Shown here piece by piece: positions 8,825-39,876 of a stretch of 49,424 bases of DNA. Made by a program: the position numbers and the translations under genes. The notes beneath the pieces were generated by a model. The model made no database searches, was not told where the DNA came from, and worked only from the letters and a program-made list of their open reading frames with translations. Source of the stretch: a virus; IMG/VR virus record IMGVR_UViG_3300036770_008625, positions 1 through 49,424 of that record. The stretch is one strand, 5' to 3'. Numbering within the stretch: the stretch's first letter is position 1; the number at the start of each line of letters is the position of its first letter.

Positions 8825-9704
8825 CCGCAAAAAACAGACCCGTCAGGTCATGGAACAATACTTTGGCCGCACACCAGATTATCAGCGCCTTTCTGTTGCC
8901 GCTGCCCAACGCATGCTGCGCCGTGTGCGTGGCCTGATCCAAGAGCATCGGTACACCACTGCGCGCCACTACAGCGAGCAAGAACCTGCCTATCTCCGCT
9001 TGATCATGCTGGAACAGGCCCTGGCGCAACATGTGCAAGAAGAGATGATTCCTGTGGCCGCGCCAGCTACATCCACAGCCAAACCAGCCACTCAGAACAG
9101 CCAGACTGCACAGAAAACCACCGTGGATGTGAAAGATCCCAAACTGGCTGCTGCTCTCAAGAAAAGCCAGGCCGGACAATCACTCACACCAGACGAACAG
9201 AAGATGGTGAGTTCAGCTGCCTTGATGCAGCAGGAAAGCCGCCTTAAGCGTGCTCTTGTCACTCTCAAAGAAAGCGAAGTGCAACAGGCCCAAGTGGTGC
9301 TGGCTGCCCAGGACATGGTAGACAACATCCAGGGCATGATCGAAGATGCCACCGAAATGCAGTTCAAAGAGCTGCCGGCCTTGGTAGATTCTATCCGCAA
9401 TCAGATCGGTATGGATCAAGCCATGCAATTCCAGCAGGAGGCCACTGCTGCCCTTACAGGGCTGGTGCAGGCCTTGCAGGGCACCAAGACCAATCTCGAG
9501 CAGGGTCTGGGCGTGGTCACTGGGCAGGCACAGGCCACTCCGGCTCTGGATGCGGCCATGTCAGCAGCGGATTCTGGTGCTGCACCAGTTCCCGGTGAAG
9601 AAGAAGTTGATCTCAGCCTGGATGCCAATCTCCCCGCAGAAGAACCCGAAGAGCCCCAAGAACCTGCGGGCACCCAAGGTGCTCTGGGACGCGGACGCAG
9701 ATAA
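8796..9704 (+). CDS. Conserved phage protein with long helical and acidic C-terminal regions
   Basis: A 302-aa protein. Residues 1-75 are a compact basic helical region (KLQELAAPDRKKQTRQVMEQ). An Ala/Pro/Thr linker (about 85-105) leads to a long helical, Gln-rich middle (120-245) and a Pro/Glu-rich acidic tail. The ATG at 8796 is supported by GAGGA 8 nt upstream and the late motif; in-frame codons further upstream overlap the previous gene in another frame. The opening MKLQELA resembles MRLREL of the next gene, possibly a shared signal. The acidic tail and coil would suit a scaffold or core protein, but this is inference. Confidence 0.55.
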   Translation: MKLQELAAPDRKKQTRQVMEQYFGRTPDYQRLSVAAAQRMLRRVRGLIQEHRYTTARHYSEQEPAYLRLIMLEQALAQHVQEEMIPVAAPATSTAKPATQNSQTAQKTTVDVKDPKLAAALKKSQAGQSLTPDEQKMVSSAALMQQESRLKRALVTLKESEVQQAQVVLAAQDMVDNIQGMIEDATEMQFKELPALVDSIRNQIGMDQAMQFQQEATAALTGLVQALQGTKTNLEQGLGVVTGQAQATPALDAAMSAADSGAAPVPGEEEVDLSLDANLPAEEPEEPQEPAGTQGALGRGRR

Positions 9705-21501: not shown

Positions 21502-21680
21502 TGTACGTGATAGTAGCAGCCATCTTTTCCACAGTGACCAATCTGTCAATGACCGTGACCTTGCCGGATCAGTATGACGACTATGCGGACTGCCTGTACT
21601 GGGCCACCACCTACAAGGCATCAGTGAACGATCAGGAGGGTTCTGTCAGGGTGCGAGAGGTACAATGTCGGCTAGGATAA
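21501..21680 (+). CDS. Small protein with hydrophobic N-terminus, unknown function
   Basis: A 59-aa protein beginning on the ligase stop (TAATG). The first 20 residues (MYVIVAAIFSTVTNLSMTVT) are hydrophobic and could be an uncleaved signal or membrane segment. The rest is polar, with two Cys (CLYWATTY and the C-terminal QCRLG) that could form a disulfide if exported. No family is recognised. Confidence 0.5.
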   Translation: MYVIVAAIFSTVTNLSMTVTLPDQYDDYADCLYWATTYKASVNDQEGSVRVREVQCRLG

Positions 21681-21787
21681 TCTTGTGGTTTGCTGTGGTG
21701 GTCATGGCTGTGGAAGCCTTGGTCATGACAAACTTGTGGGCACACTGGGCATGGGCCTTGTGTTTGCTGTGGTTGGTATCTTGTTAG
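21665..21787 (+). CDS. Membrane micropeptide (40 aa)
   Basis: Overlaps the preceding gene by 16 nt. It encodes a 40-aa, Trp- and Leu-rich peptide (MSARIILWFAVVVMAVEALV and onward, ending CLLWLVSC) with one or two closely spaced membrane helices and almost no soluble part. No obvious Shine-Dalgarno precedes it beyond GAGAGG at about 9 nt. The function is unknown; such peptides often act on the host membrane. Confidence 0.45.
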   Translation: MSARIILWFAVVVMAVEALVMTNLWAHWAWALCLLWLVSC

Positions 21788-21793
21788 AATCAA

Positions 21794-21799
21794 TATAAT
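21794..21799 (+). promoter_or_regulatory. Possible -10 element upstream of groES
   Basis: A perfect TATAAT lies in the 176-nt gap before groES, but the best -35 (TTGGTA at 21773) has a short 15-bp spacer. A GTTCAC/GTGAAC inverted repeat follows at 21816-21834. It could be an early promoter for groESL, in addition to the late-type promoter at 21893. Confidence 0.35.
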
Positions 21800-21892
21800 T
21801 GTGACATCCCAGGCTGTTCACATCACGCGTGAACCTATGACTCGGCCAAAATTAATTTCGCCGAAATATTAGCGTTTCGTCTTTGATTGCTG

Positions 21893-21963
21893 TATAAATA
21901 CGATTTGCATGGTGCCATTGGACCATGCGAATTTTCTTGCTTAACCTAAAGGAGAAAAATGCA
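21893..21963 (+). promoter_or_regulatory. Late promoter and structured 5' leader of groES-groEL
   Basis: TATAAATA (21893-21900) exactly matches the T4 late consensus. A hairpin with GCATGGT (21907-21913) pairing ACCATGC (21922-21928) follows, extendable by three further pairs. The segment CTTGCTTAAC and the ribosome site AAAGGAG then precede the ATG at 21964. An earlier ATG (21959) opens only ATG-CAA-TGA. The same order of elements, with matching sequence TTGCTGTATAAATA, GATTTG and CTTGCTTAAC, occurs before hsp20 at 30.7 kb. Confidence 0.8.
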
Positions 21964-23903
<1,940 letters not shown>

Positions 23904-23907
23904 ATAG

Positions 23908-23935
23908 AAAAGGGAGGCTGGTCCTCCCTTTTTTT
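23908..23935 (+). terminator. Intrinsic terminator after groEL
   Basis: A 7-bp stem AGGGAGG (23911-23917) / CCTCCCT (23923-23929) with a 5-nt loop, followed by a T-run. A GTAAATA motif at 23900-23906 just before it overlaps the groEL stop and could be a late promoter for the next gene, with the hairpin then at the 5' end of that mRNA. Confidence 0.9.
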
Positions 23936-23939
23936 CTAT

Positions 23940-24314
23940 ATGACATTTAGACCTCGCATGGACCTTGATATGTTGCGCTCGGAATGGCTGGTAGAAAAGG
24001 CCATGGCCAGTGATACCTATGCTCAAAATCTCTATGCGGCCATGTGCAATCGAGAATGGCAACATCAAGACGTGTGGACGGTGCTAAACGACCAGGTCTG
24101 GTCATGTTCGTGGCGCAGTGCCGGCGACATCGTGGCTAATATCCAGGGCAAAGGCGACTACATGGACTGGTATTGTTCGGGTATGACGGGCATTCCGGAC
24201 AATCACGGACAAACTCCAAAACAGTTTGTACCAGAAGGTCACATCACAGCAGAAATACGCGAGGATCTGGCCAAACTGGGCTGGCATCCGGTAGACATAG
24301 AAAGCACTCGATGA
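23940..24314 (+). CDS. Conserved aquatic phage protein, unknown function
   Basis: A 124-aa protein with the segment VWSCSWRSAGDIVANIQGKG followed by DYMDWYCSG, and a C-terminal helix EIREDLAKLGWHP. This pattern looks familiar from unnamed families in T4-like cyanophages. The two Cys (WSCSW, WYCSG) may bind metal. It begins only 5 nt after the groEL terminator and no clear Shine-Dalgarno is visible. The stop overlaps the next gene (ATGA). Confidence 0.6.
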   Translation: MTFRPRMDLDMLRSEWLVEKAMASDTYAQNLYAAMCNREWQHQDVWTVLNDQVWSCSWRSAGDIVANIQGKGDYMDWYCSGMTGIPDNHGQTPKQFVPEGHITAEIREDLAKLGWHPVDIESTR

Positions 24315-25444
24315 AAGTTTCAATTTTAATCGATCAACCCAGTATTGATCTCCGTGTCTTTGATTTTTTAAGAGCCGAATTATATTCTAAACAGAAGGAT
24401 GTCTTTATCGAATATCATACGGATCCGAATGCCTTATGCGGTGCAGACAAAAAGATATTGTTTTCATATATGCCCTCACACCTAGACCACAATCTAGATG
24501 ATTTTGATCTTGTGTTTTTCTCTAATGGAGACGAGACCACCACTGTGGCCACGGAATGCTTGCTAGAACACCTCGATCATCCGCATGCTTACCTACTGGC
24601 CAATGCCTGGTTGCATCAAGGGCATGCATTGTACCACAAGGTTATATCATGCAATAATGATTTCTTGATTACTAGACAATATTGGACCAATGCATATTTT
24701 CCGCAATATCACAGTCATCAGGTCGCAGCACCTACCAAAGTCACTGATCTATTTTTTATCAATGGTGCCAATCGTTCTTGGCGGCATCATGTCATTGAAG
24801 AGATCAAGAAACAGATCCCAACATTGTTGTGTCATTCAAGTCTGAGCGATGTGATACATGAAACAGACGACGCTTTCTGGGAATCAGACCAAGACAGCGC
24901 GTTCCGAGAATATGTGAATACACGGTATTCAATCAAACGTAATGTTTCCAGCAGGTACTATGAAAATTCTGTGTCTTTTCCAGTTCCTTCTGGTGTTTTG
25001 GGCTTGCCACAGGGTGAATGCATCATACCCCCCGGTTATTTTATCACCAATCACTATTATCAGTATCGTTGTGTAATCTTTCCAGAGGCGACTTGGAAAA
25101 ACAACGAAGCGTCGCCAACAGAAAAGATCGCCAAGTGTTTTTTTGCCAAAACCTTGCCATGGCCGGTAGGCGGCTCCAAAATCAATCAGATTTACAACGC
25201 TCTGGGCTTTAGAACTGCATGGAATCTCTTGCCTGAGACATTGCGAGATTATGACGATGAAAACGATCATATCAAACGTCATAGCAAGATGTCAATTGCC
25301 ATGGCATGGCTTGCAGAACACAGCGAAATTTTGAAATCTCAGGCCTGCCAACAGATCATTGACCAAAATTACATCACCTTTCTTTGCAACGACATAGACG
25401 CCAGGTCGGTTGCAAGGCTCCAAAAATTATTGCTTGACCAATAA
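24311..25444 (+). CDS. Unknown protein, possibly glycosyltransferase-like
   Basis: A 377-aa protein of distinctly lower GC and freer codon use than its neighbours, suggesting recent transfer. The N-terminal half has Rossmann-like alternation (KVSILIDQPSIDLRVFDFLR, KKILFSYMPSHL). The C-terminal part (ASPTEKIAKCFFAKTLPWPV, then GGSKINQIYNALGFRTAWNL) recalls the acceptor-end motif EK..k.f....P...G of GT10-like sugar transferases and related phage proteins. This resemblance is weak. The ATG at 24311 is set by overlap with the upstream stop. A role in modifying a surface sugar is a guess. Confidence 0.5.
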   Translation: MKVSILIDQPSIDLRVFDFLRAELYSKQKDVFIEYHTDPNALCGADKKILFSYMPSHLDHNLDDFDLVFFSNGDETTTVATECLLEHLDHPHAYLLANAWLHQGHALYHKVISCNNDFLITRQYWTNAYFPQYHSHQVAAPTKVTDLFFINGANRSWRHHVIEEIKKQIPTLLCHSSLSDVIHETDDAFWESDQDSAFREYVNTRYSIKRNVSSRYYENSVSFPVPSGVLGLPQGECIIPPGYFITNHYYQYRCVIFPEATWKNNEASPTEKIAKCFFAKTLPWPVGGSKINQIYNALGFRTAWNLLPETLRDYDDENDHIKRHSKMSIAMAWLAEHSEILKSQACQQIIDQNYITFLCNDIDARSVARLQKLLLDQ

Positions 25445-25463
25445 TTGATTTCTGTGCTAGAAT
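25434..25463 (+). promoter_or_regulatory. Sigma70-like promoter with extended -10
   Basis: TTGACC (25434-25439), an 18-bp spacer and TGCTAGAAT (extended -10, hexamer 25458-25463). It overlaps the end of the previous gene and precedes GGAGG and the ATG at 25493. Confidence 0.8.
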
Positions 25464-25492
25464 AGCAATATCATAAAACACTGGAGGTTGCT

Positions 25493-25744
25493 ATGAATTA
25501 CTGGGGATTTTTGCGTTGGCAGTTCCGGGGCTGTTTGGCCAGTCCTACTTTCTGGGGTTTCCTGGCCTTGGCTGTGGCCACTGTGCTGATGCTGTTCGCG
25601 GCTCCCACAGCCTTGATCATGACCGTGGCGGCCACTGGTGCTGGCTTGGTTATCTTGGATGCTGGCATCTCGTGGTTCCGCATGAGCTACAGCATCTATG
25701 AATCCGAACAACAGCAGATCGAGCGCCGACTGGGAGACCGATAA
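25493..25744 (+). CDS. Small membrane protein with two predicted helices
   Basis: An 83-aa protein. Two hydrophobic stretches (FWGFLALAVATVLMLF and LIMTVAATGAGLVILDAGISW) form a hairpin in the membrane, with basic residues at the N-terminus and a charged C-terminal helix (SEQQQIERRLGDR). It is the first gene behind the promoter at 25434, with CTGGAGG upstream. The function is unknown; a role in host-membrane control or superinfection exclusion is possible but unproven. Confidence 0.6.
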   Translation: MNYWGFLRWQFRGCLASPTFWGFLALAVATVLMLFAAPTALIMTVAATGAGLVILDAGISWFRMSYSIYESEQQQIERRLGDR

Positions 25745-25745
25745 C

Positions 25746-25904
25746 ATGAGATCACTGGCTCTAGCTGTCGCGGCTGTTTCTGCATTCCTGGTGGTCACCC
25801 GTTGGGGCACGCCCGAGGCCATAGCCTGGACTGTGGCTTTTTGTGGTTGGTTGCCGCATGCGTTTGATGACAAGAAGGAGAGGGATAATGGCCACCAAGC
25901 GTGA
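25746..25904 (+). CDS. Small hydrophobic protein (52 aa)
   Basis: Begins 2 nt after the previous stop. The first 37 residues are hydrophobic (MRSLALAVAAVSAFLVVTRW and following), likely one or two membrane segments. A charged tail, DDKKERDNGHQA, follows. Its 3' end overlaps the next gene and carries that gene's AAGGAG site. No family is recognised. Confidence 0.5.
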   Translation: MRSLALAVAAVSAFLVVTRWGTPEAIAWTVAFCGWLPHAFDDKKERDNGHQA

Positions 25905-26847
25905 AAAACAAGAACTCATGGACACTCTGAAGTTTACACCCATCCGAGCCCGATTGTTGATCCAGGGCTATGGTGGCGAGTGCTATATCGGGTCAGTGAG
26001 CCGTGCAGACTACGAAGTGTTCAAGGCCCGGCGGGTGGACCTCGATCAGTATCTGGGAGACTGGGACAATGAGCTGTTCCAGGATATCCCCACAGAGAAT
26101 CGTTTCACAGAACCCGGGCAGGCCTATGAGTGCGACGATCTGTTCCACGGTTCAGGTGCTACCATGGATGACAGCAGTTGGATCACCGTCAGCAATGACG
26201 AAACAAACGAGGATCTGTTCCGGACCAATTTGGACATAGCCCACCTGGAACAGCAGGGCATTGGGGTAGATTGCAGTGAAGGTTTTGAAAGCGACGAACT
26301 GGATGATGGCACAGTGATCTTCTGGGGTGGTCAAGGTGAAAAGGGCTGTTTCTTTGATGCCGAATTTACTTTGACAAAACCCTTTGATCCACGACTGCTG
26401 AAGATTTACTACGGCAACGGTGATGGGTGGAACATTCTAAGCCATGTGGAATACGATGGTCAGGATCTAGAAGGCCAAGATGGATACAGCACCACTGGTA
26501 AATGGAGCGAGAACAAGTTTCATATCGTGGGTGAGGAAGCGGTCTATGAAAGCGAGTACCGTGACGAGGACGATGATGACGATGGCGATGTACCAGTGCT
26601 GGAAGGCGAGGAGATGTGGGCCCAAGAAGCCATCGACTCCGAACTCGACACCTGGGAAGGCATCCCACTGTCGCCCTGGCATGAGGGCAACGTGAAGCCA
26701 ACAGTGAAAGGTCGTTACCAGGTATTTGAAAAGGATGCCAGCTGGCCATTCCCCATGTGGGCAGAGTGGACCGGTCGTTCTTGGACGGACGATGGCAAGA
26801 AAGTTAAAGTAAAACAGTGGCGGGGACTGAGTCAACCCGCAGACTAA
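25888..26847 (+). CDS. Large acidic protein of unknown function
   Basis: A 319-aa protein, very acidic, with a run of Asp/Glu at about residues 225-240 (DEDDDDDGDVP). The N-terminal part, FTPIRARLLIQGYGGECYIG, is a compact hydrophobic block that appears in unnamed aquatic phage proteins. The C-terminal 50 residues are Trp-rich. The ATG at 25888 follows AAGGAGAGG. Strong negative charge could mimic DNA or bind basic partners, as some phage inhibitors do, but no evidence here shows this. The gene is followed by the RNA island. Confidence 0.55.
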   Translation: MATKREKQELMDTLKFTPIRARLLIQGYGGECYIGSVSRADYEVFKARRVDLDQYLGDWDNELFQDIPTENRFTEPGQAYECDDLFHGSGATMDDSSWITVSNDETNEDLFRTNLDIAHLEQQGIGVDCSEGFESDELDDGTVIFWGGQGEKGCFFDAEFTLTKPFDPRLLKIYYGNGDGWNILSHVEYDGQDLEGQDGYSTTGKWSENKFHIVGEEAVYESEYRDEDDDDDGDVPVLEGEEMWAQEAIDSELDTWEGIPLSPWHEGNVKPTVKGRYQVFEKDASWPFPMWAEWTGRSWTDDGKKVKVKQWRGLSQPAD

Positions 26848-26849
26848 AG

Positions 26850-27117
26850 AACGCGGCGCCTAGTCAGCGCATAGTGTGACCCGCATGATGAAGTGGCGTG
26901 ACAGCCACGGGTGGTTCCAGTCCAACCGAACTGGCGCTGGCAATGCGTGAACGGGCCTGTGGAGAGCGGGTGTCCTGCTACCTTATTCTGCCTTAGGCAG
27001 AAATTTTGCCTGCTGAGGTGTCCACTGGGGCGATGGCTGCCGGTGAGGGGCTAACCAGGCGTAGTGGGTCGAAAGGTAAATGACCGCGACGGAGCCGTCA
27101 GAGCAGTTTTTTTTTTT
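26850..27117 (+). ncRNA. Candidate structured non-coding RNA 1
   Basis: About 270 nt without a credible ORF but dense in complementary segments. CAGCGC near 26865 can pair with GCGCTG near 26930, enclosing two hairpins (GTGGC/GCCAC and CCAGT/ACTGG), which makes a three-way junction. A 7-bp hairpin TTCTGCC-tta-GGCAGAA lies at 26986-27002. CCACT/AGTGG encloses GCC/GGC and GGT/ACC pairs at about 27024-27068. GACG/CGTC at 27088-27099 and an 11-T run (27107-27117) close the element like a terminator. It is not recognisable as tmRNA, RNase P RNA, 6S RNA or a group I intron. It could be a stable RNA or a leader of the micro-ORF that follows. Confidence 0.55.
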
Positions 27118-27132
27118 GGAAAGGAACATGGC

Positions 27133-27216
27133 ATGAAGATCCATCCCCGTGAATGGTTGGCCTATGTGAAATGGCGCATCATGAAACTGTTTCGAAAACG
27201 GCGATACGTCACCTGA
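27133..27216 (+). CDS. Basic micropeptide (27 aa)
   Basis: An ATG at 27133 with AAAGGA 7 nt upstream encodes a 27-aa peptide rich in Lys, Arg and Trp (MKIHPREWLAYVKWRIMKLF, ending RKRRYVT). It is amphipathic and strongly basic. It lies between candidate RNA 1 and a perfect terminator. An overlapping ATG at 27128 gives only two codons. It may be a real regulator or membrane-active peptide, or a minor ORF of the RNA unit. Confidence 0.4.
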   Translation: MKIHPREWLAYVKWRIMKLFRKRRYVT

Positions 27217-27218
27217 GC

Positions 27219-27243
27219 AAAGCCACCGAAAGGTGGCTTTTTT
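27219..27243 (+). terminator. Intrinsic terminator
   Basis: AAAGCCACC (27219-27227) / GGTGGCTTT (27232-27240) with a GAAA tetraloop and further T residues. It ends the first RNA and micropeptide unit. Confidence 0.92.
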
Positions 27244-27245
27244 GA

Positions 27246-27274
27246 TTGCATACCTGTGTAAATCATGCTAAACT
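27246..27274 (+). promoter_or_regulatory. Sigma70-like promoter of structured RNA 2
   Basis: TTGCAT (27246-27251), a 17-bp spacer and TAAACT (27269-27274) with an extended -10 TGC. It lies directly after the 27219 terminator, and the predicted start is near 27281, where the second structured region begins. Confidence 0.65.
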
Positions 27275-27280
27275 ACTATG

Positions 27281-27521
27281 GCAGTGAAGGGGCGATGGTA
27301 GGCGCAGGTCCGGCACGCACCCGGGAAGGTGAGCCGTGGCGACAGCAGTGACTTGGGAAGTCCTACGAGGGTGTGGCACCAGGCGATGTGATCAGCCACC
27401 CAGGATCACGTCAAAACCCACATGATGTCCAACAGGACCTCTCTGTGGGGAGTACGCCAGGCCAGTGGCAGGGTGAAAAGCAGGTAGCAAGAACTGTATC
27501 GAACCGGAGATCTCTATTCAT
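27281..27521 (+). ncRNA. Candidate structured non-coding RNA 2 or long structured leader
   Basis: About 240 nt between a promoter and the ATG at 27522. Hairpins: CGGC...GCCG enclosing CACC/GGTG (about 27311-27336); GACTT-ggg-AAGTC (27350-27362); a 9-bp stem GATGTGATC/GATCACGTC (27385-27412); CCCAC (27417) with GTGGG (27445) enclosing GTCC-aaca-GGAC; GCCA/TGGC near 27460-27475. The loop sequence GCCAC (27395-27399) can pair with GTGGC (27373-27377) as a pseudoknot. It shares GGGGCGATGG with RNA 1. It may be a stable RNA, or a riboswitch-like leader for the next gene. Confidence 0.55.
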
Positions 27522-27815
27522 ATGTCAAAGCAATTCGATCCACTTGGAAAAACGGCCCCGGAACTGCACCGATTTTGGTTCTTGGTATCCACCCAGGAGC
27601 AATGGTATGGGATCATGCGTGAGTGCCGGGCCTGGTTCGGAAAAGACTGGCGCGGTATGAGCAAGGTGCGCCGCAAACTGGGATCAAAACACAGCCCTCG
27701 GCCGCAGTTGGTGCCGGTCTGGTTTGAAGTGCCAGATCCGCGTTTCGCCACCTGGATCGCCGTAAAAATGAGCCTGCAGGTACAGAGTGATGCCAAGTAT
27801 CAAACCAATAAATAA
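27522..27815 (+). CDS. Small basic Trp-rich protein, unknown function
   Basis: A 97-aa protein (FWFLVSTQEQWYGIMRECRAW and downstream RGMSKVRRKLG) directly after the structured RNA 2 region. GGAG lies 11 nt before the ATG, a rather long gap. The basic middle may bind nucleic acid. If RNA 2 is a leader, this is the regulated gene. It ends 6 nt before the membrane protein gene. No family was recognised. Confidence 0.5.
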   Translation: MSKQFDPLGKTAPELHRFWFLVSTQEQWYGIMRECRAWFGKDWRGMSKVRRKLGSKHSPRPQLVPVWFEVPDPRFATWIAVKMSLQVQSDAKYQTNK

Positions 27816-27821
27816 TCGATT

Positions 27822-29297
27822 ATGTTCCTGACCTACCTCATGCTGTTTGTGGCCCTGTGCCTCAGTGCCGTGGCCGCTTTTTACTCTATCATAGGACTCA
27901 CGGCCATATTCGCAGCCGCGGTATGGCCCATCGTGATCATGGGCACCATCCTGGAAGCGGCCAAGCTGGTGGTCACAGTGTGGCTGCACGAGTACTGGCA
28001 GGATGTCAAACTCAGCATGAAGATCTATCTAGTGCCCGCGGTGTTCACGCTGATGGTGATCACCAGCATGGGCATCTTCGGATTCCTGTCAAAGGCGCAC
28101 CTCGACCAGACAGTTCCCACCGGAGATGTGCAGGCCCAGGTGGCCTTGATCGATGAAAAGATCACCAACGAACGAGACACCATAGCAAACGCTCGCACCT
28201 TGCTGGGACAACTGGATCGGGCAGTGAGCGATCTGGCCGCTGCCGGAGATCGCGAGGTCAAGAACCGTGATGGTTCTGTCACTGTGCAGACGGCAGCCGA
28301 ACGCAGTCTCCAGGTGCGCAGACAACAGGCCCGAGACAGGGCCGCGCTCACTAAGACCATAGAAGACAGCCAGGCCCGCATCGTCAAACTGCAGGAAGAG
28401 AAGGCACCATTCGCCAAGGAACTGCGCAAGGTGGAAGCCGAGGTTGGTCCTATCAAGTACATCGCCGCCTTGATCTATGGCGACAATCCTGACGCCAATC
28501 TCCTGGAAAAAGCAGTACGCTGGGTGATCATAATACTCGTGATAGTGTTCGATCCCTTGGCCATCATGATGCTGCTGGCCGCCACAGAGAGTTATCGCTG
28601 GGAACGTGAGCGTCGCAAAACTATAGTACCAGTCACACCAGAACCAGAACCTATACCAGACTCGGAACCTGTACCAGACTCTGAACCTCCGGTGCTAGGG
28701 CCCAAACCAGACAATCCAGTAGAGTACAAGGTACTGGATGATGTCAGTGAGCCAGACTACATTGAACCAGCAAAGGTTTCAGATATCTCAAAAAATGACA
28801 GCTCAGCATCTAACACTGAAATCGAAGCAATTCATGATACCGACGACACAGACAATGCAATAGTAGCCGACGAAACAAATCATCGAATCAAAGAAGCCAT
28901 GAAACGATGGAAGGCCGAAAATCCTACAAAGACGCTGAAGGAACAAAGACATAGACTGGAGCTGGGTGTCATTGACGAATTACCCTGGATGACTTTGTTA
29001 GCGGACAACACAAATGATCGCGAAATCAACACAGGTTTCGGAACCGCATTCCCAGAAAACAGTGCCAAAGGGGATGTGTTTGTGCGTGTAGACAGATTGC
29101 CCAACACAGTATTCAAGTACAATGGTCAGAGTTGGATAGAAGTCGACAAGAATCACAGCACCAGTTATACCTATGACGAAGCATACATAGATTATCTGAT
29201 AGAACAGATAGATCGAGGCACTTATGACCCGGAACTGCTGAGCTCAGTGGAAGCAGATCTCATAGCCAAACGTATCAATCCAACTGATCGAACATGA
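27822..29297 (+). CDS. Membrane-anchored coiled-coil protein
   Basis: A 491-aa protein. Two or three helices at residues 1-90 (MFLTYLMLFVALCLSAVAAF, VFTLMVITSMGIFGFL) precede a long coiled coil (about 100-215). Another helix at about 232-252 (WVIIILVIVFDPLAIMMLLA) follows, then a Pro/Glu linker (PEPEPIPDSEP) and a soluble C-terminal domain with VFVRVDRLPNTVFKYNGQSW. That C-terminal part resembles unnamed virion or membrane proteins of T4-like phages. Base composition falls from GC-rich codons before about 28620 to AT-rich codons after it, suggesting a mosaic. It overlaps clpX by ATGA. The function is unknown. Confidence 0.6.
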   Translation: MFLTYLMLFVALCLSAVAAFYSIIGLTAIFAAAVWPIVIMGTILEAAKLVVTVWLHEYWQDVKLSMKIYLVPAVFTLMVITSMGIFGFLSKAHLDQTVPTGDVQAQVALIDEKITNERDTIANARTLLGQLDRAVSDLAAAGDREVKNRDGSVTVQTAAERSLQVRRQQARDRAALTKTIEDSQARIVKLQEEKAPFAKELRKVEAEVGPIKYIAALIYGDNPDANLLEKAVRWVIIILVIVFDPLAIMMLLAATESYRWERERRKTIVPVTPEPEPIPDSEPVPDSEPPVLGPKPDNPVEYKVLDDVSEPDYIEPAKVSDISKNDSSASNTEIEAIHDTDDTDNAIVADETNHRIKEAMKRWKAENPTKTLKEQRHRLELGVIDELPWMTLLADNTNDREINTGFGTAFPENSAKGDVFVRVDRLPNTVFKYNGQSWIEVDKNHSTSYTYDEAYIDYLIEQIDRGTYDPELLSSVEADLIAKRINPTDRT

Positions 29298-30496
29298 TCC
29301 AAGATGCCATCAATGTCTGCAGTTTCTGCAGCAAGCACAAAGATGCGGTGGCCAAACTCATAGTTGGTGGAACAGCAGCCATCTGCAACGAATGTGTCGA
29401 TCTATGCGAACATCTATTGCAAGAACAGACGGCACCATCGACAAAAAATACCAAGGACATCGATCCGGTACAAATCAAAAACTTTCTTGATCAACACGTG
29501 ATCGGCCAGCACGACGCCAAGATAGTGTTAAGCGTGGCGATAGCTAACCATTACAAACGCATCAATTGCGCAGCCACTGACGTGGAAATAGAAAAAGTCA
29601 ATATCCTGATGTTAGGGCCCACTGGCTGCGGCAAAACGCTGTTGGCAAAAACCGTGGCACGATATCTGGATGTGCCATTCGTGATAGCTGATGCCACCAG
29701 TCTCACAGAAGCGGGCTACGTAGGTGATGATGTAGAAAGCATGATTTCCCGCCTGTACAATGCTGCTGGCCAAGACATAGAACGATGCCAACGAGGCATA
29801 GTGTTTATAGATGAAATAGACAAGATATCACGCAAAAGTGAAAGTGTGAATATCAGCCGTGATGTCAGTGGTGAAGGTGTCCAACAGGCCTTGTTGAAAG
29901 TGGTTGAAGGTACAAAATGCAGGGTCACACCTCAGGGTGGCCGCAAGCATCCATCTGGAGATACGGTAGAAATAGACACTACCAATATCCTGTTCATAGC
30001 TGGAGGTGCTTTTGTGGGTCTTGATGCCTTGATAGCCAACAGGACCAAGGGAACCAGCATAGGATTTAGAGCCAGTGTGGATTCTGTCACATCGGGTGAT
30101 CTTTCACGGGATTTGACGCCAGATGATCTGGTGAAGTTTGGATTGATTCCAGAATTCGTGGGCCGTTTTCCCACCTGGGTCACACTGCGACCATTGACAA
30201 AAACAGACTTGATCATGATTTTGCAACAGATCAAAAATAACTATGTGGCTCAGTATCAATGGTTGTTTGAGCAGGACGAAGTAGAACTCCGATTCACTTC
30301 TGCGGCTCTGGATCTCATAGCCGACAACACCTTATCAAACAAAACCGGTGCTCGTGGTCTGCACAGTGAGCTGGAAAGGATCTTGATGCCGCACATGTAT
30401 CAATTGACCAGCTATCGAAAACAGGGTATTAAGTGCGTAGATATAGACGAGCAAATGGTAAATACTCCCATGCAACTTCGGACGATTAATGAGTAA
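29294..30496 (+). CDS. clpX: ATP-dependent protease unfoldase ClpX
   Basis: A 400-aa AAA+ unfoldase. The N-terminal zinc-binding domain has Cys9, Cys12, Cys31 and Cys34. GPTGCGKT is Walker A and IVFIDEIDK Walker B; GYVGDD is the pore-1 loop; GGRKHP contains the RKH loop; [10 protein letters not shown] is the sensor-2 region. The IGF loop (TSIGFRASV), which docks ClpP, is present. It should therefore be able to pair with host ClpP, as no clpP is seen here. It would change which proteins are degraded in the infected cell. Codon use is more AT-rich than in the structural genes. It overlaps bS21 by 8 nt. Confidence 0.96.
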
Positions 30497-30710
30497 ATTT
30501 GGAAGAACAGTCACGGTAGGTGATGGCAACGTTGAAAAAGCCCTGCGCAAGTTCAAAAAAAAGATACAGGCATCAGGAATACTCAATGAACTACGGGATC
30601 GTGAACATTTTGTAAAGCCTACCACAGAGAGAAAAATCAAACGCAACGCTGCTCGAAATCGTTGGCGCAAATATGTGCAGAGTCAGCAATTGCCACCCAG
30701 ACAGTATTGA
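30489..30710 (+). CDS. rpsU: Ribosomal protein bS21
   Basis: A 73-aa bS21: VGDGNVEKALRKFKKKIQAS, then GILNELRDREHF and KPTTERKIKR with a basic tail. E. coli bS21 is 71 aa with the same RRFKR...E.R.RE.YEKPTTERKR plan. bS21 sits near the anti-Shine-Dalgarno end of 16S rRNA, so a phage copy could alter which mRNAs start. Phage bS21 genes are known from pelagiphages and huge phages. The ATG overlaps the clpX end. Its TGA lies within the -35 element of the hsp20 promoter. Confidence 0.93.
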   Translation: MSKFGRTVTVGDGNVEKALRKFKKKIQASGILNELRDREHFVKPTTERKIKRNAARNRWRKYVQSQQLPPRQY

Positions 30711-30796: not shown

Positions 30797-31231
30797 ATGA
30801 CTAAAATCACATCTTTTGATCTTACCCCGTTTTATCGCAACACAGTAGGCATGGATCGCCTGTTTGATCGCATTACCAGTCAGCTGGATGCAGCATCAGG
30901 TAATTATCCTCCCTATGATATCGTCCGCACCGGTGATGACTGCTATGAGATACGCATCGCTGCTGCTGGTTTCAAACAGGGTGAAATAGATTTGGAATTC
31001 CACGAAGGGCGTCTCAATGTCACAGGCAGGCAGACCCTAGAAGAACGTGCAGAGGTAGAATATCTGCATCACGGAATTTCCAATCGAGGTTTTCAGCGTG
31101 TGTTCACACTGGCCGATTATGTGGAAGTAAAAGGTGCTGTGATGAAAGATGGTATCCTGACAGTGCAGCTGGAACGCATCGTACCAGATACCATGAAACC
31201 CAAAAACATTGCCATTACCTACGCGGGTTAA
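30797..31231 (+). CDS. Small heat-shock protein Hsp20 (IbpA-like)
   Basis: A 144-aa alpha-crystallin-domain holdase that keeps unfolding proteins soluble. PPYDIVRTGDDCYEIRIAAA opens the alpha-crystallin domain, with AGFKQGEIDLEFHEGRLNV next; GFQRVFTLAD and the conserved DGILTVQLER are present. The order and size match IbpA and known T4-like phage Hsp20. The promoter can be read by host polymerase early and by a T4-like late system, suggesting expression through infection. Confidence 0.94.
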   Translation: MTKITSFDLTPFYRNTVGMDRLFDRITSQLDAASGNYPPYDIVRTGDDCYEIRIAAAGFKQGEIDLEFHEGRLNVTGRQTLEERAEVEYLHHGISNRGFQRVFTLADYVEVKGAVMKDGILTVQLERIVPDTMKPKNIAITYAG

Positions 31232-31235
31232 CCTG

Positions 31236-31267
31236 CTAAATATGACGGTGGCATTATGCCACCGTCA
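31236..31267 (+). promoter_or_regulatory. Late promoter motif followed by an 11-bp hairpin (clpS leader)
   Basis: CTAAATA (31236-31242) is followed at once by TGACGGTGGCA (31243-31253) and its perfect complement TGCCACCGTCA (31257-31267) with a 3-nt loop. No U-tract follows, so it is not a standard terminator for hsp20. The hairpin would sit at the very 5' end of the clpS mRNA. Confidence 0.65.
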
Positions 31268-31288
31268 ATTTCGAAAGAGATTCCTGCA

Positions 31289-31597
31289 ATGTCAAACGAC
31301 GACACCAACGTCAAGATCAAAATCAATCATCAATTGCAAGAGCCGGTTTTGTTCCGAGTGATATATCTCAACGACGATGTCACTTCTTTAGAATTTGTGA
31401 TCGACAGTTTAATACAATGGTTCAATTATTCCGATCAGGAGGCACAGGATGTTGCCGTTGAAATCCATCAGACTGGGTCAGCTGTGGTGGCCGTATTACC
31501 ATTTGAAATAGCAGAACAAAAAGGTATAGAAATCACGATGCAAGCCCGAGCACAGCATTTTCCCTTGCAGATCAAACTAGAGCCAGAAGCAGTCTAA
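31289..31597 (+). CDS. clpS: Clp protease adaptor ClpS
   Basis: A 102-aa ClpS. FRVIYLNDDVTSLEFVIDSL matches the YxVxLxNDDxTPMEFVxxVL core that binds N-degron residues, and AVEIHQTGSAVV matches the family second motif. The C-terminal PLQIKLEPE fits. In bacteria ClpS delivers N-end-rule substrates to ClpAP. No ClpA is seen here and ClpX is not its usual partner, so the phage protein probably acts on host ClpA. The ATG at 31289 is supported by AAAGAGA 8 nt upstream; an earlier ATG at 31256 lies inside the hairpin. Confidence 0.9.
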   Translation: MSNDDTNVKIKINHQLQEPVLFRVIYLNDDVTSLEFVIDSLIQWFNYSDQEAQDVAVEIHQTGSAVVAVLPFEIAEQKGIEITMQARAQHFPLQIKLEPEAV

Positions 31598-39411: not shown

Positions 39412-39578
39412 TGAGTTGGTTCCGAAGAGCGCCACATGCGAAAGAACAGCCCCGACTGAGACCACATCATGCTGTGAACGATGAGCTACGTCGCGAAGTG
39501 GAAGAAAATCGCCTGCGCTTAGAAGAACATCGTCGACAGCAACAAGAAAAGGAAAGCCAAGATGGAAAACTTCATTGA
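39411..39578 (+). CDS. Small charged helical protein (55 aa)
   Basis: Starts on the stop of the adhesin-like gene (TAATG). It encodes 55 aa, almost entirely Arg, Glu, His and Gln (ELRREVEENRLRLEEHRRQQ), a likely single coiled-coil helix. No signal peptide. GGAGG lies 7 nt upstream. It may bind a partner membrane protein in the same operon. The function is unknown. Confidence 0.5.
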   Translation: MSWFRRAPHAKEQPRLRPHHAVNDELRREVEENRLRLEEHRRQQQEKESQDGKLH

Positions 39579-39753
39579 CGACAACGTGGCCTATCACAGG
39601 CTCAAACCCACCTGCACCTGCGGTTGTGCCAAGCACTGTGGACTGAGTTGCATGACCGACGGCTGTGATTGTTTTGAGTGCGCCTGTGCTATGTGCAAGG
39701 ATCCGCTGTTGTTTGCTGGTCTGGACATCGAACGGTATGGCATGAGAGACTGA
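39562..39753 (+). CDS. Cys-rich metal-binding micro-protein (63 aa)
   Basis: The stretch CTCGCAKHCGLSCMTDGCDC, continuing FECACAMC, contains ten Cys and a His within 30 residues (about 18-46). This is zinc-ribbon-like or metallothionein-like, and no signal peptide is present, so it is probably a cytoplasmic Zn binder. The ATG has AAGGA 10 nt upstream and overlaps both neighbours. No known family is recognised. Confidence 0.6.
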   Translation: MENFIDDNVAYHRLKPTCTCGCAKHCGLSCMTDGCDCFECACAMCKDPLLFAGLDIERYGMRD

Positions 39754-39863
39754 TGGCACCCTATGTGTTTTCATTCATGATAGATGCTGCCAGTTTGGCC
39801 CTGGGTATGGTGCTGGGTGCAGTAGGCGCCCTGGCCATGATATTAGTGATAAAGAATTTTTAA
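39753..39863 (+). CDS. Membrane micropeptide (36 aa)
   Basis: Starts on the preceding stop (TGATG). One membrane helix with Gly-zipper-like spacing (ASLALGMVLGAVGALAMILV) and a short basic tail, IKNF. Such helices can pack into oligomers, as in small pinholins, but this is inference from composition and operon position. Confidence 0.5.
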   Translation: MAPYVFSFMIDAASLALGMVLGAVGALAMILVIKNF

Positions 39864-39876
39864 GGAGCAGAAGAAA

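Follow-up and report, generated by a model that had tools for sequence, protein, structure and literature searches.

The window analysed here is the whole of IMG/VR virus record IMGVR_UViG_3300036770_008625, a stretch of 49,424 bases that carries genes for a DnaB-like helicase, ribonucleotide reductase, DNA ligase, GroES/GroEL, ClpX, Hsp20 and UDP-glucose dehydrogenase, alongside other phage genes. Two possible auxiliary metabolic genes encode a weak DAHP-synthase-like protein (43054-43899) and a radical-SAM/QueE-like protein (46292-47482). An earlier note on this DNA described positions 26848-27521 as a gene-free island holding two structured RNAs (block 1 and block 2). No ORF of at least 60 aa fills this interval, bar a GTG-start overlap at 27373, and the hairpins and terminators described for it are present in the sequence. 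The gap is real but not the only island, because the ORF list has other gaps of several hundred nucleotides (21502-21924 and 39412-39876). Between the ligase gene and the operon that follows the island, the window carries GroES/GroEL, three unknown genes and block 1 (21925-27119 in all), and this segment looks like an insertion, because the ligase lies far nearer to the leader in relatives.

The small features between the two blocks were all located: a 27-aa basic ORF, a perfect GAAA-loop terminator and a promoter-like element, best read as TTGCAT-N17-(TGc)TAAACT (Table 1). In relatives, the micropeptide lies after the ligase gene; its DNA is 90-93% identical over approximately 50 nt in two loci, L002 (about 1004-1059) and L015 (544-594), and is weakly kept in L003 and L004. 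Terminator-like hairpins occur at the same place in five loci (L004, L014, L044, L045 and L060), and the terminator in the window insulates the downstream operon against upstream transcription.

Table 1. Positions of the genes, signals and RNA helices at the locus
Feature	Position	Strand	Details and evidence
Basic micropeptide, 27 aa	27133-27216		MKIHPREWLAYVKWRIMKLFRKRRYVT; DNA conservation in relatives
Intrinsic terminator	27219-27240	+	9 bp, GAAA loop, T tail; sequence
Sigma70-like promoter	27246-27274	+	TTGCAT 27246-27251, 17-nt spacer, extended -10 TGcTAAACT 27266-27274; sequence
Structured RNA domain	27280-27568	+	Whole 5' leader plus first ~16 codons of g27.5
P0, 5' strand	27281-27292	+	GCAG ... 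GGGG; intervening UGAA faces GGAA
PK1, 5' strand	27305-27310	+	CAGGUC; partner 27350-27355 GACUUG; 5/5 main pairs compensatory
Hairpin H1	27312-27335	+	GGCACGC / GUGAGCC, apical loop ACCCGGGAAG; covariation
Helix P2, 5' strand	27337-27341	+	UGGCG; partner 27455-27459 CGCCA
Helix P3, 5' strand	27377-27381	+	CACC plus covarying base; partner 27471-27475, N-GGUG
Hairpin H4	27385-27412	+	GAUGUGAUC / GAUCACGUC; 9/9 pairs compensatory
PK2, H4 loop	27395-27399	+	GCCAC; partner 27465-27469 GUGGC; 5/5 pairs covary, 88.6% of cells paired
Hairpin H5	27418-27448	+	Outer CCACA/UGUGG, inner GUCC/GGAC
Small 3' hairpin	27480-27497	+	GCAG / CUGU
Shine-Dalgarno-like region	27506-27515	+	GGAGAUCUCU; GGAG plus conserved GANNYCUCU block
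g27.5, basic protein, 97 aa	27522-27815	+	Residues 1-15 encoded by the RNA element
P0, 3' strand	27556-27567	+	CCCC ... CUGC, within g27.5 codons 12-16; 27559 covaries with 27289
g27.8, membrane/coiled-coil protein	27822-29297	+	Weak DUF4407 similarity; next gene of the operon
ClpX-like AAA+ protein	29294-30496	+	Zinc finger
Ribosomal protein bS21	30489-30710	+	PF01165
Hsp20 and ClpS-like ATP-dependent protease adaptor	30797-31597	+	Hsp20 30797-31231; ClpS-like 31256-31597

The two blocks fared very differently. Neither folds better than its dinucleotide shuffles (z = 0.12 and 0.19); folding energy therefore gives no support, and comparison has to decide. For block 1 (26848-27119), no homologue was found in phages, plasmids, the fetched loci or IMG/VR (one exact 20-mer), and in relatives that carry the micropeptide the block is not upstream of it, a short ORF taking its place in L015. 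The sequence ties proposed between the blocks dissolved as well: GGGGCGATGG, said to be common to both, occurs at chance level (5 matches with at most one mismatch, against 4.0 expected), and the complementary 7-mers TGCTACC and GGTAGCA are without comparative support. Block 1 is also not a paralogue or copy of block 2, because the model of block 2 has no second match in the window. With neither homologue nor energetic signal, block 1 should be set aside. Of the two structured RNAs claimed for the island, block 2 alone is structured and covaries; block 1 is not supported.

Block 2, by contrast, belongs to a widespread set of RNAs. Searches of IMG/VR, GTDB representatives and phage and plasmid collections gave approximately 95 further IMG/VR contigs with a homologous RNA, some of them longer than 200 kb. 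Scans with the g27.5 and g27.8 proteins returned loci that share the gene order ligase, gap, g27.5, g27.8, ClpX, and in five of these block 2, but not block 1, stands directly before g27.5. A DNA pattern combined with an alignment-based scan yielded a set of 14 RNAs of the window type, and a shorter, divergent version (the short type) is present in many more loci. A second DNA pattern, aimed at the short type and independent of the proteins, returned 94 contigs, of which 85 are genuine; g27.5 lies directly downstream in 81 of the 85, and in the remaining four the ORF there is short or seems to be cut off by the end of the contig. Model R1, built from window-type RNAs only, detects the short type at E = 2e-15 to 6e-4, exclusively upstream of g27.5, and found nothing credible elsewhere in 51 sources, block 1 included. 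In record searches, R1 and R2 gave at most one match per record. The isolate Pelagibacter phage Mosig (L055) carries a g27.8 homologue plus an annotated tmRNA gene (9320-9658); no g27.5 was found in it by tblastn, and R1 has no match in the fetched locus.

No known family accounts for this RNA. At gathering cut-offs Rfam 15 has no match in the window, and at E <= 10 nothing overlaps block 2 and there is no credible match in ten relatives. The view that the region does not resemble tmRNA, RNase P or a group I intron held, with no covariance-model or ARAGORN match (tRNA likewise), and no conserved ORF spans block 2. Searches of open literature found no description of the RNA, although unpublished or subscription-only accounts may exist. 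As judged from sequence comparison, the block 2 RNA is a new structured RNA family, previously undescribed.

Covariation gives the fold its shape. In a sequence-only alignment of the 14 window-type RNAs, compensatory changes occur in 36 of 49 pairs, a count that rests on MAFFT alignments of related, not independent, sequences, a kinship addressed by slid and tree-based controls. Paired bases fill 78.8% of cells; sliding the 3' strands by 1-3 columns lowers this to 37-40%, and none of 500 shuffles reaches the observed values. The short type behaves likewise (25/32 pairs with compensatory changes and 85% of cells paired, against 33-46% slid, n=52; 34/49 pairs in 20 diverse RNAs). An alignment-free test, which paired each strand with its own or with another sequence's partner, agrees for PK2, H4, H5, H1 and the short-type PK1, and was not significant for the window-type PK1 and the short-type H5. 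Most of the short-type structure escaped RNAalifold when this was used alone, the main helices being pseudoknotted or variable in length.

The 9-bp stem and 5-bp pseudoknot guessed at for block 2 both exist and covary across phages. They correspond to H4 and PK2, in which the H4 loop of the window type pairs with a stretch downstream of P2 (GCCAC/GUGGC, GCCGC/GCGGC or GACCG/CGGUC). PK1, whose strands flank H1 and the 5' strand of P2, is at its strongest in short-type RNAs, where all seven pairs are compensatory and U-A changes to C-G at several positions; the inner pair of P2 changes from A-U to U-A. In P3, CACC pairs with the GGUG just upstream of AAAGC, with one covarying closing pair and 94% of cells paired (26-41% slid). 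A local GGUG-NGG-CACC hairpin in block 2 shows no compensatory change and is replaced by this long-range helix. Because of their strand order, PK1, P2 and P3 are mutually interlocked. The fold also contains the invariant unpaired bases UGNGRCA and CAAAAC, and some short-type relatives have other pairings in place of PK2 and P3. The apical loops of H1 (27319-27328 in the window, and its homologues) are often self-complementary, as in CCCGGG, CCUAGG, CUCGAG and AUCGAU; as a dimerization signal this palindrome is suggestive, but with distinct hexamers it does not reach significance (697 of 10000 permutations).

These compensatory changes are a constraint on pairing, and so tell against a signal acting at the level of DNA, such as a replication-origin transcript serving as R-loop primer. 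The presence of at most one copy per searched record, the strong promoter and the long conserved region would suit an origin; however, the GC skew of a 364-kb relative shows neither a maximum nor a minimum at the RNA, and we regard this reading as highly improbable.

The domain does not end where the island does. The earlier 3' boundary is too short, as the element spans 27280 to approximately 27568, about 47 nt inside the ORF that starts at 27522; block 2 was rightly seen as a possible structured leader, but its closing inside the downstream coding region had been missed. This closure is helix P0, in which the transcript's 5'-terminal 13 nt pair into g27.5 codons and enclose the ribosome-binding site. 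When every pair of columns between the transcription start and +105 was scanned for covarying helices, the top helix joined the 5' end of the transcript to short-type codons ~21-25. There P0 reaches 13 bp (for example, UGCAUGACCAGGG with CCCUUGGUCAUGCA), with 12-13 bp in many sequences, and its strands change in concert: UGCACGGUUGGGG with CCCUCAGCCGUGCA in L106, CGCAUUGGUAG with CUACCGAUGCG in L143 and UGCAUAGUGUCGG with CCGACGCUAUGCA in L127. Across 20 diverse sequences the main part of P0 is 91.9% paired and eight of nine pairs are compensatory. Neutral simulation on the tree did not reach P0 in any of 300 runs, the pairing being 0.949 (maximum simulated 0.892) and the covariation 1.57 (maximum 0.64).

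In the window type, P0 consists of GCAG/CUGC plus NGGG/CCCN around a symmetric UGAA/GGAA loop, with pairing in 99.1% of cells (33-50% slid). Leader nucleotide 10 and the second base of codon 13 form G-C in seven phages, U-A in five, G-U in one and a mismatch in one, so that codon 13 tracks the leader in 13 of 14 phages and residue 13 of g27.5 is Pro, Gln or Leu in line with the base at leader nucleotide 10. Codons 8-15 of g27.5 show 100% synonymous identity among 12 diverged window-type phages, whereas the rest of the gene has a mean of 47% codon identity at conserved residues; the conserved pattern reads CTT-RRA-NNA-ACG, together with a conserved UGCAC. A further pairing within the short-type coding region, GCGUU/AACGC, was not kept in relatives when these were read through without a formal test.

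The subtypes differ in where translation begins. In the short type the start lies ahead of the GANNYCUCU block; in the window type, and in the subtype of L123, whose upstream frame has a stop, it lies downstream of the block. The nucleotides of the block are recognizable in all three subtypes, whether translated (short) or untranslated (window). Around the start region, it is the RNA rather than the peptide that is kept. Members of the third subtype (L123, L139, L141, L143 and L156) have GUG, or UUG in L143, in place of the upstream AUG, and an in-frame stop, and keep the same start-region nucleotides though translation starts further downstream.

A free-standing non-coding RNA, processed from the transcript with its 3' end inside the g27.5 ORF and perhaps acting as an RNP with the g27.5 protein, might be expected to show such conservation whether or not the segment is translated. 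Like many stand-alone RNAs, it has its 5' end paired with its 3' end, and the linkage to one small basic protein is strict. Excision, however, would deprive g27.5 of the start of its ORF, the promoter and start codon are always kept, and we saw no 3' processing site or terminator, which leaves this an unlikely reading. We are similarly doubtful of a bifunctional RNA, an ornate machine whose 3' end is also part of the g27.5 gene and which works as a ribozyme or as an RNP, bound to protein or associating with itself. If that were true, g27.5 translation and RNA folding would exclude each other, the RNA would dictate residues of the protein, and the self-complementary H1 loops would allow kissing-loop dimers.

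The order of elements is invariably promoter, RNA and g27.5 operon. In the homologues, many promoters read TTGACA-N17-TATAAT, and the end of the -10 box lies 6-9 nt ahead of the first base of the RNA. The RNA begins where transcription from its own sigma70-like promoter would start, and keeps a constant position between the promoter and one gene, on the same strand and with no terminator between. This constant position, the promoter spacing and the upstream terminators support a cis-acting leader, and we take the RNA to be a cis-acting mRNA leader element of the g27.5 operon. The earlier alternative of new non-coding RNAs or a structured leader is thereby narrowed: a leader unlike any Rfam family stands, and the second RNA and the sequence link between the two do not.

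The g27.5 protein has no Pfam or PHROG match, nuclease domain or PDB sequence relative, a fold search gave no significant PDB or viral match, and no relatives were found in bacterial genomes. AlphaFold2 predicts a small alpha/beta fold, in which residues 1-5 have pLDDT <50 and no structure is assigned before residue 16. Relatives of g27.5 that are without the RNA are also without about 5-15 residues of the N-terminal extension, which is encoded by the codons that pair in P0 and those before them. Because the core is similar in phages that do not have the RNA, RNA binding by g27.5 is not implied. In L067, L072, L074 and L075, which have a g27.5 relative and no RNA, a -10-like box stands almost directly before the start codon, which suggests that a leaderless transcript or very short 5' UTR replaces the structured one.

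Downstream, the ClpX, bS21, Hsp20 and ClpS genes belong to an operon whose probable role is to adjust proteolysis and translation in the host. Chen et al. (PMC9723584) described genes for Hsp20 and Clp protease in the neighbourhood of phage bS21 genes, which matches the operon here; the text of that paper makes no mention of a non-coding RNA. The presence of Hsp20, ClpX and ClpS genes would fit an RNA thermometer governing a heat-shock-like operon, but known thermometers are short, imperfect hairpins that mask the Shine-Dalgarno sequence and are little conserved, whereas this leader is large, conserved and pseudoknotted, and we consider a thermometer very unlikely. A small-molecule or ion riboswitch, in which a P0-closed aptamer would mask the ribosome-binding site upon binding, would agree with the compact multi-pseudoknot fold, the invariant unpaired bases and the fixed position before one operon. 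No Rfam riboswitch aptamer matches the RNA, however, and the operon encodes no metabolic enzyme that hints at a ligand; we give this reading a low probability.

P0 could also act without any ligand, as a lock on the 5' end that hides the triphosphate while the compact domain shields the long operon mRNA from host RNases. Stabilizing 5' stem-loops are established for bacterial mRNAs, and P0 is built from the outermost 5' nucleotides of the transcript, with 12-13 bp in many short types. A simple hairpin would suffice for this purpose, though, and the invariant loops, two pseudoknots and frozen start-codon bases would be unexplained, which makes such a lock rather improbable.

With P0 closed, the Shine-Dalgarno sequence and start codon sit within the closed domain, and the fold includes the ribosome-binding site and the early codons. 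Control of translation is favoured because the ribosome-binding site is inside. Our data are consistent with a model, to which we give somewhat better than even credence as a whole explanation, where positions 27280-27568 act as a cis-acting translational operator resembling the alpha-operon pseudoknot. Transcription would begin at approximately 27280. The RNA folds into the interlocked pseudoknots (PK1 with P2 and P3, plus PK2), and P0 closes the domain by joining the 5' end of the mRNA to g27.5 codons 12-16. The domain would govern the initiation of g27.5 translation and, by coupling, that of the g27.8-ClpX-bS21-Hsp20-ClpS operon. A phage factor may stabilize the domain; the first candidate is the product of g27.5 itself, because it is basic, small and always adjacent, and an excess of this product could shut the operon down. 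Translating ribosomes would open P0. The leader thus probably controls the timing of translation of the phage protein-quality-control operon.

Several known systems are comparable to this RNA. The leader of phage T4 gene 32, an autoregulated gene, is likewise a phage mRNA with a 5' pseudoknot ahead of the gene start; that pseudoknot is a small one at the extreme 5' end, and it makes no closing contact with the coding region. Nearest in mechanism are the E. coli alpha-operon (rpsM) and rpsO operators of uS4 and uS15, in which a pseudoknot that includes the ribosome-binding site is locked by the product (PMC10931766). The leader described here also folds over its ribosome-binding site but is unrelated to these in sequence and fold, is approximately 290 nt long with several interlocked pseudoknots, is phage-encoded and pairs the 5' end of its transcript far inside the ORF. 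The ornate RNAs GOLLD, ROOL and OLE, which cryo-EM shows to be homo-oligomers (PMC12286853), were likewise large RNAs found via comparative genomics; they are non-coding, whereas the leader overlaps an ORF and has no Rfam match. Strict linkage of a conserved structured RNA to one ORF also recalls the IscB omega-RNA (HEARO) and other RNAs that lie beside the gene of their partner protein, but no nuclease gene adjoins the leader: g27.5 matches nothing in Pfam and shows no nuclease domain, and there is no HEARO match in Rfam.

Large RNA families that are proven by covariation and lie outside Rfam are now rare, and the leader RNA is one such. It is common in uncultured phages, some with genomes of more than 200 kb, where it heads a ClpX-bS21-Hsp20-ClpS operon. 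P0 is an unusually clear case of a helix that spans the whole leader and the early codons, fixing both synonymous and amino-acid choices. The leader RNA represents a direct and testable handle on the timing of this phage operon.
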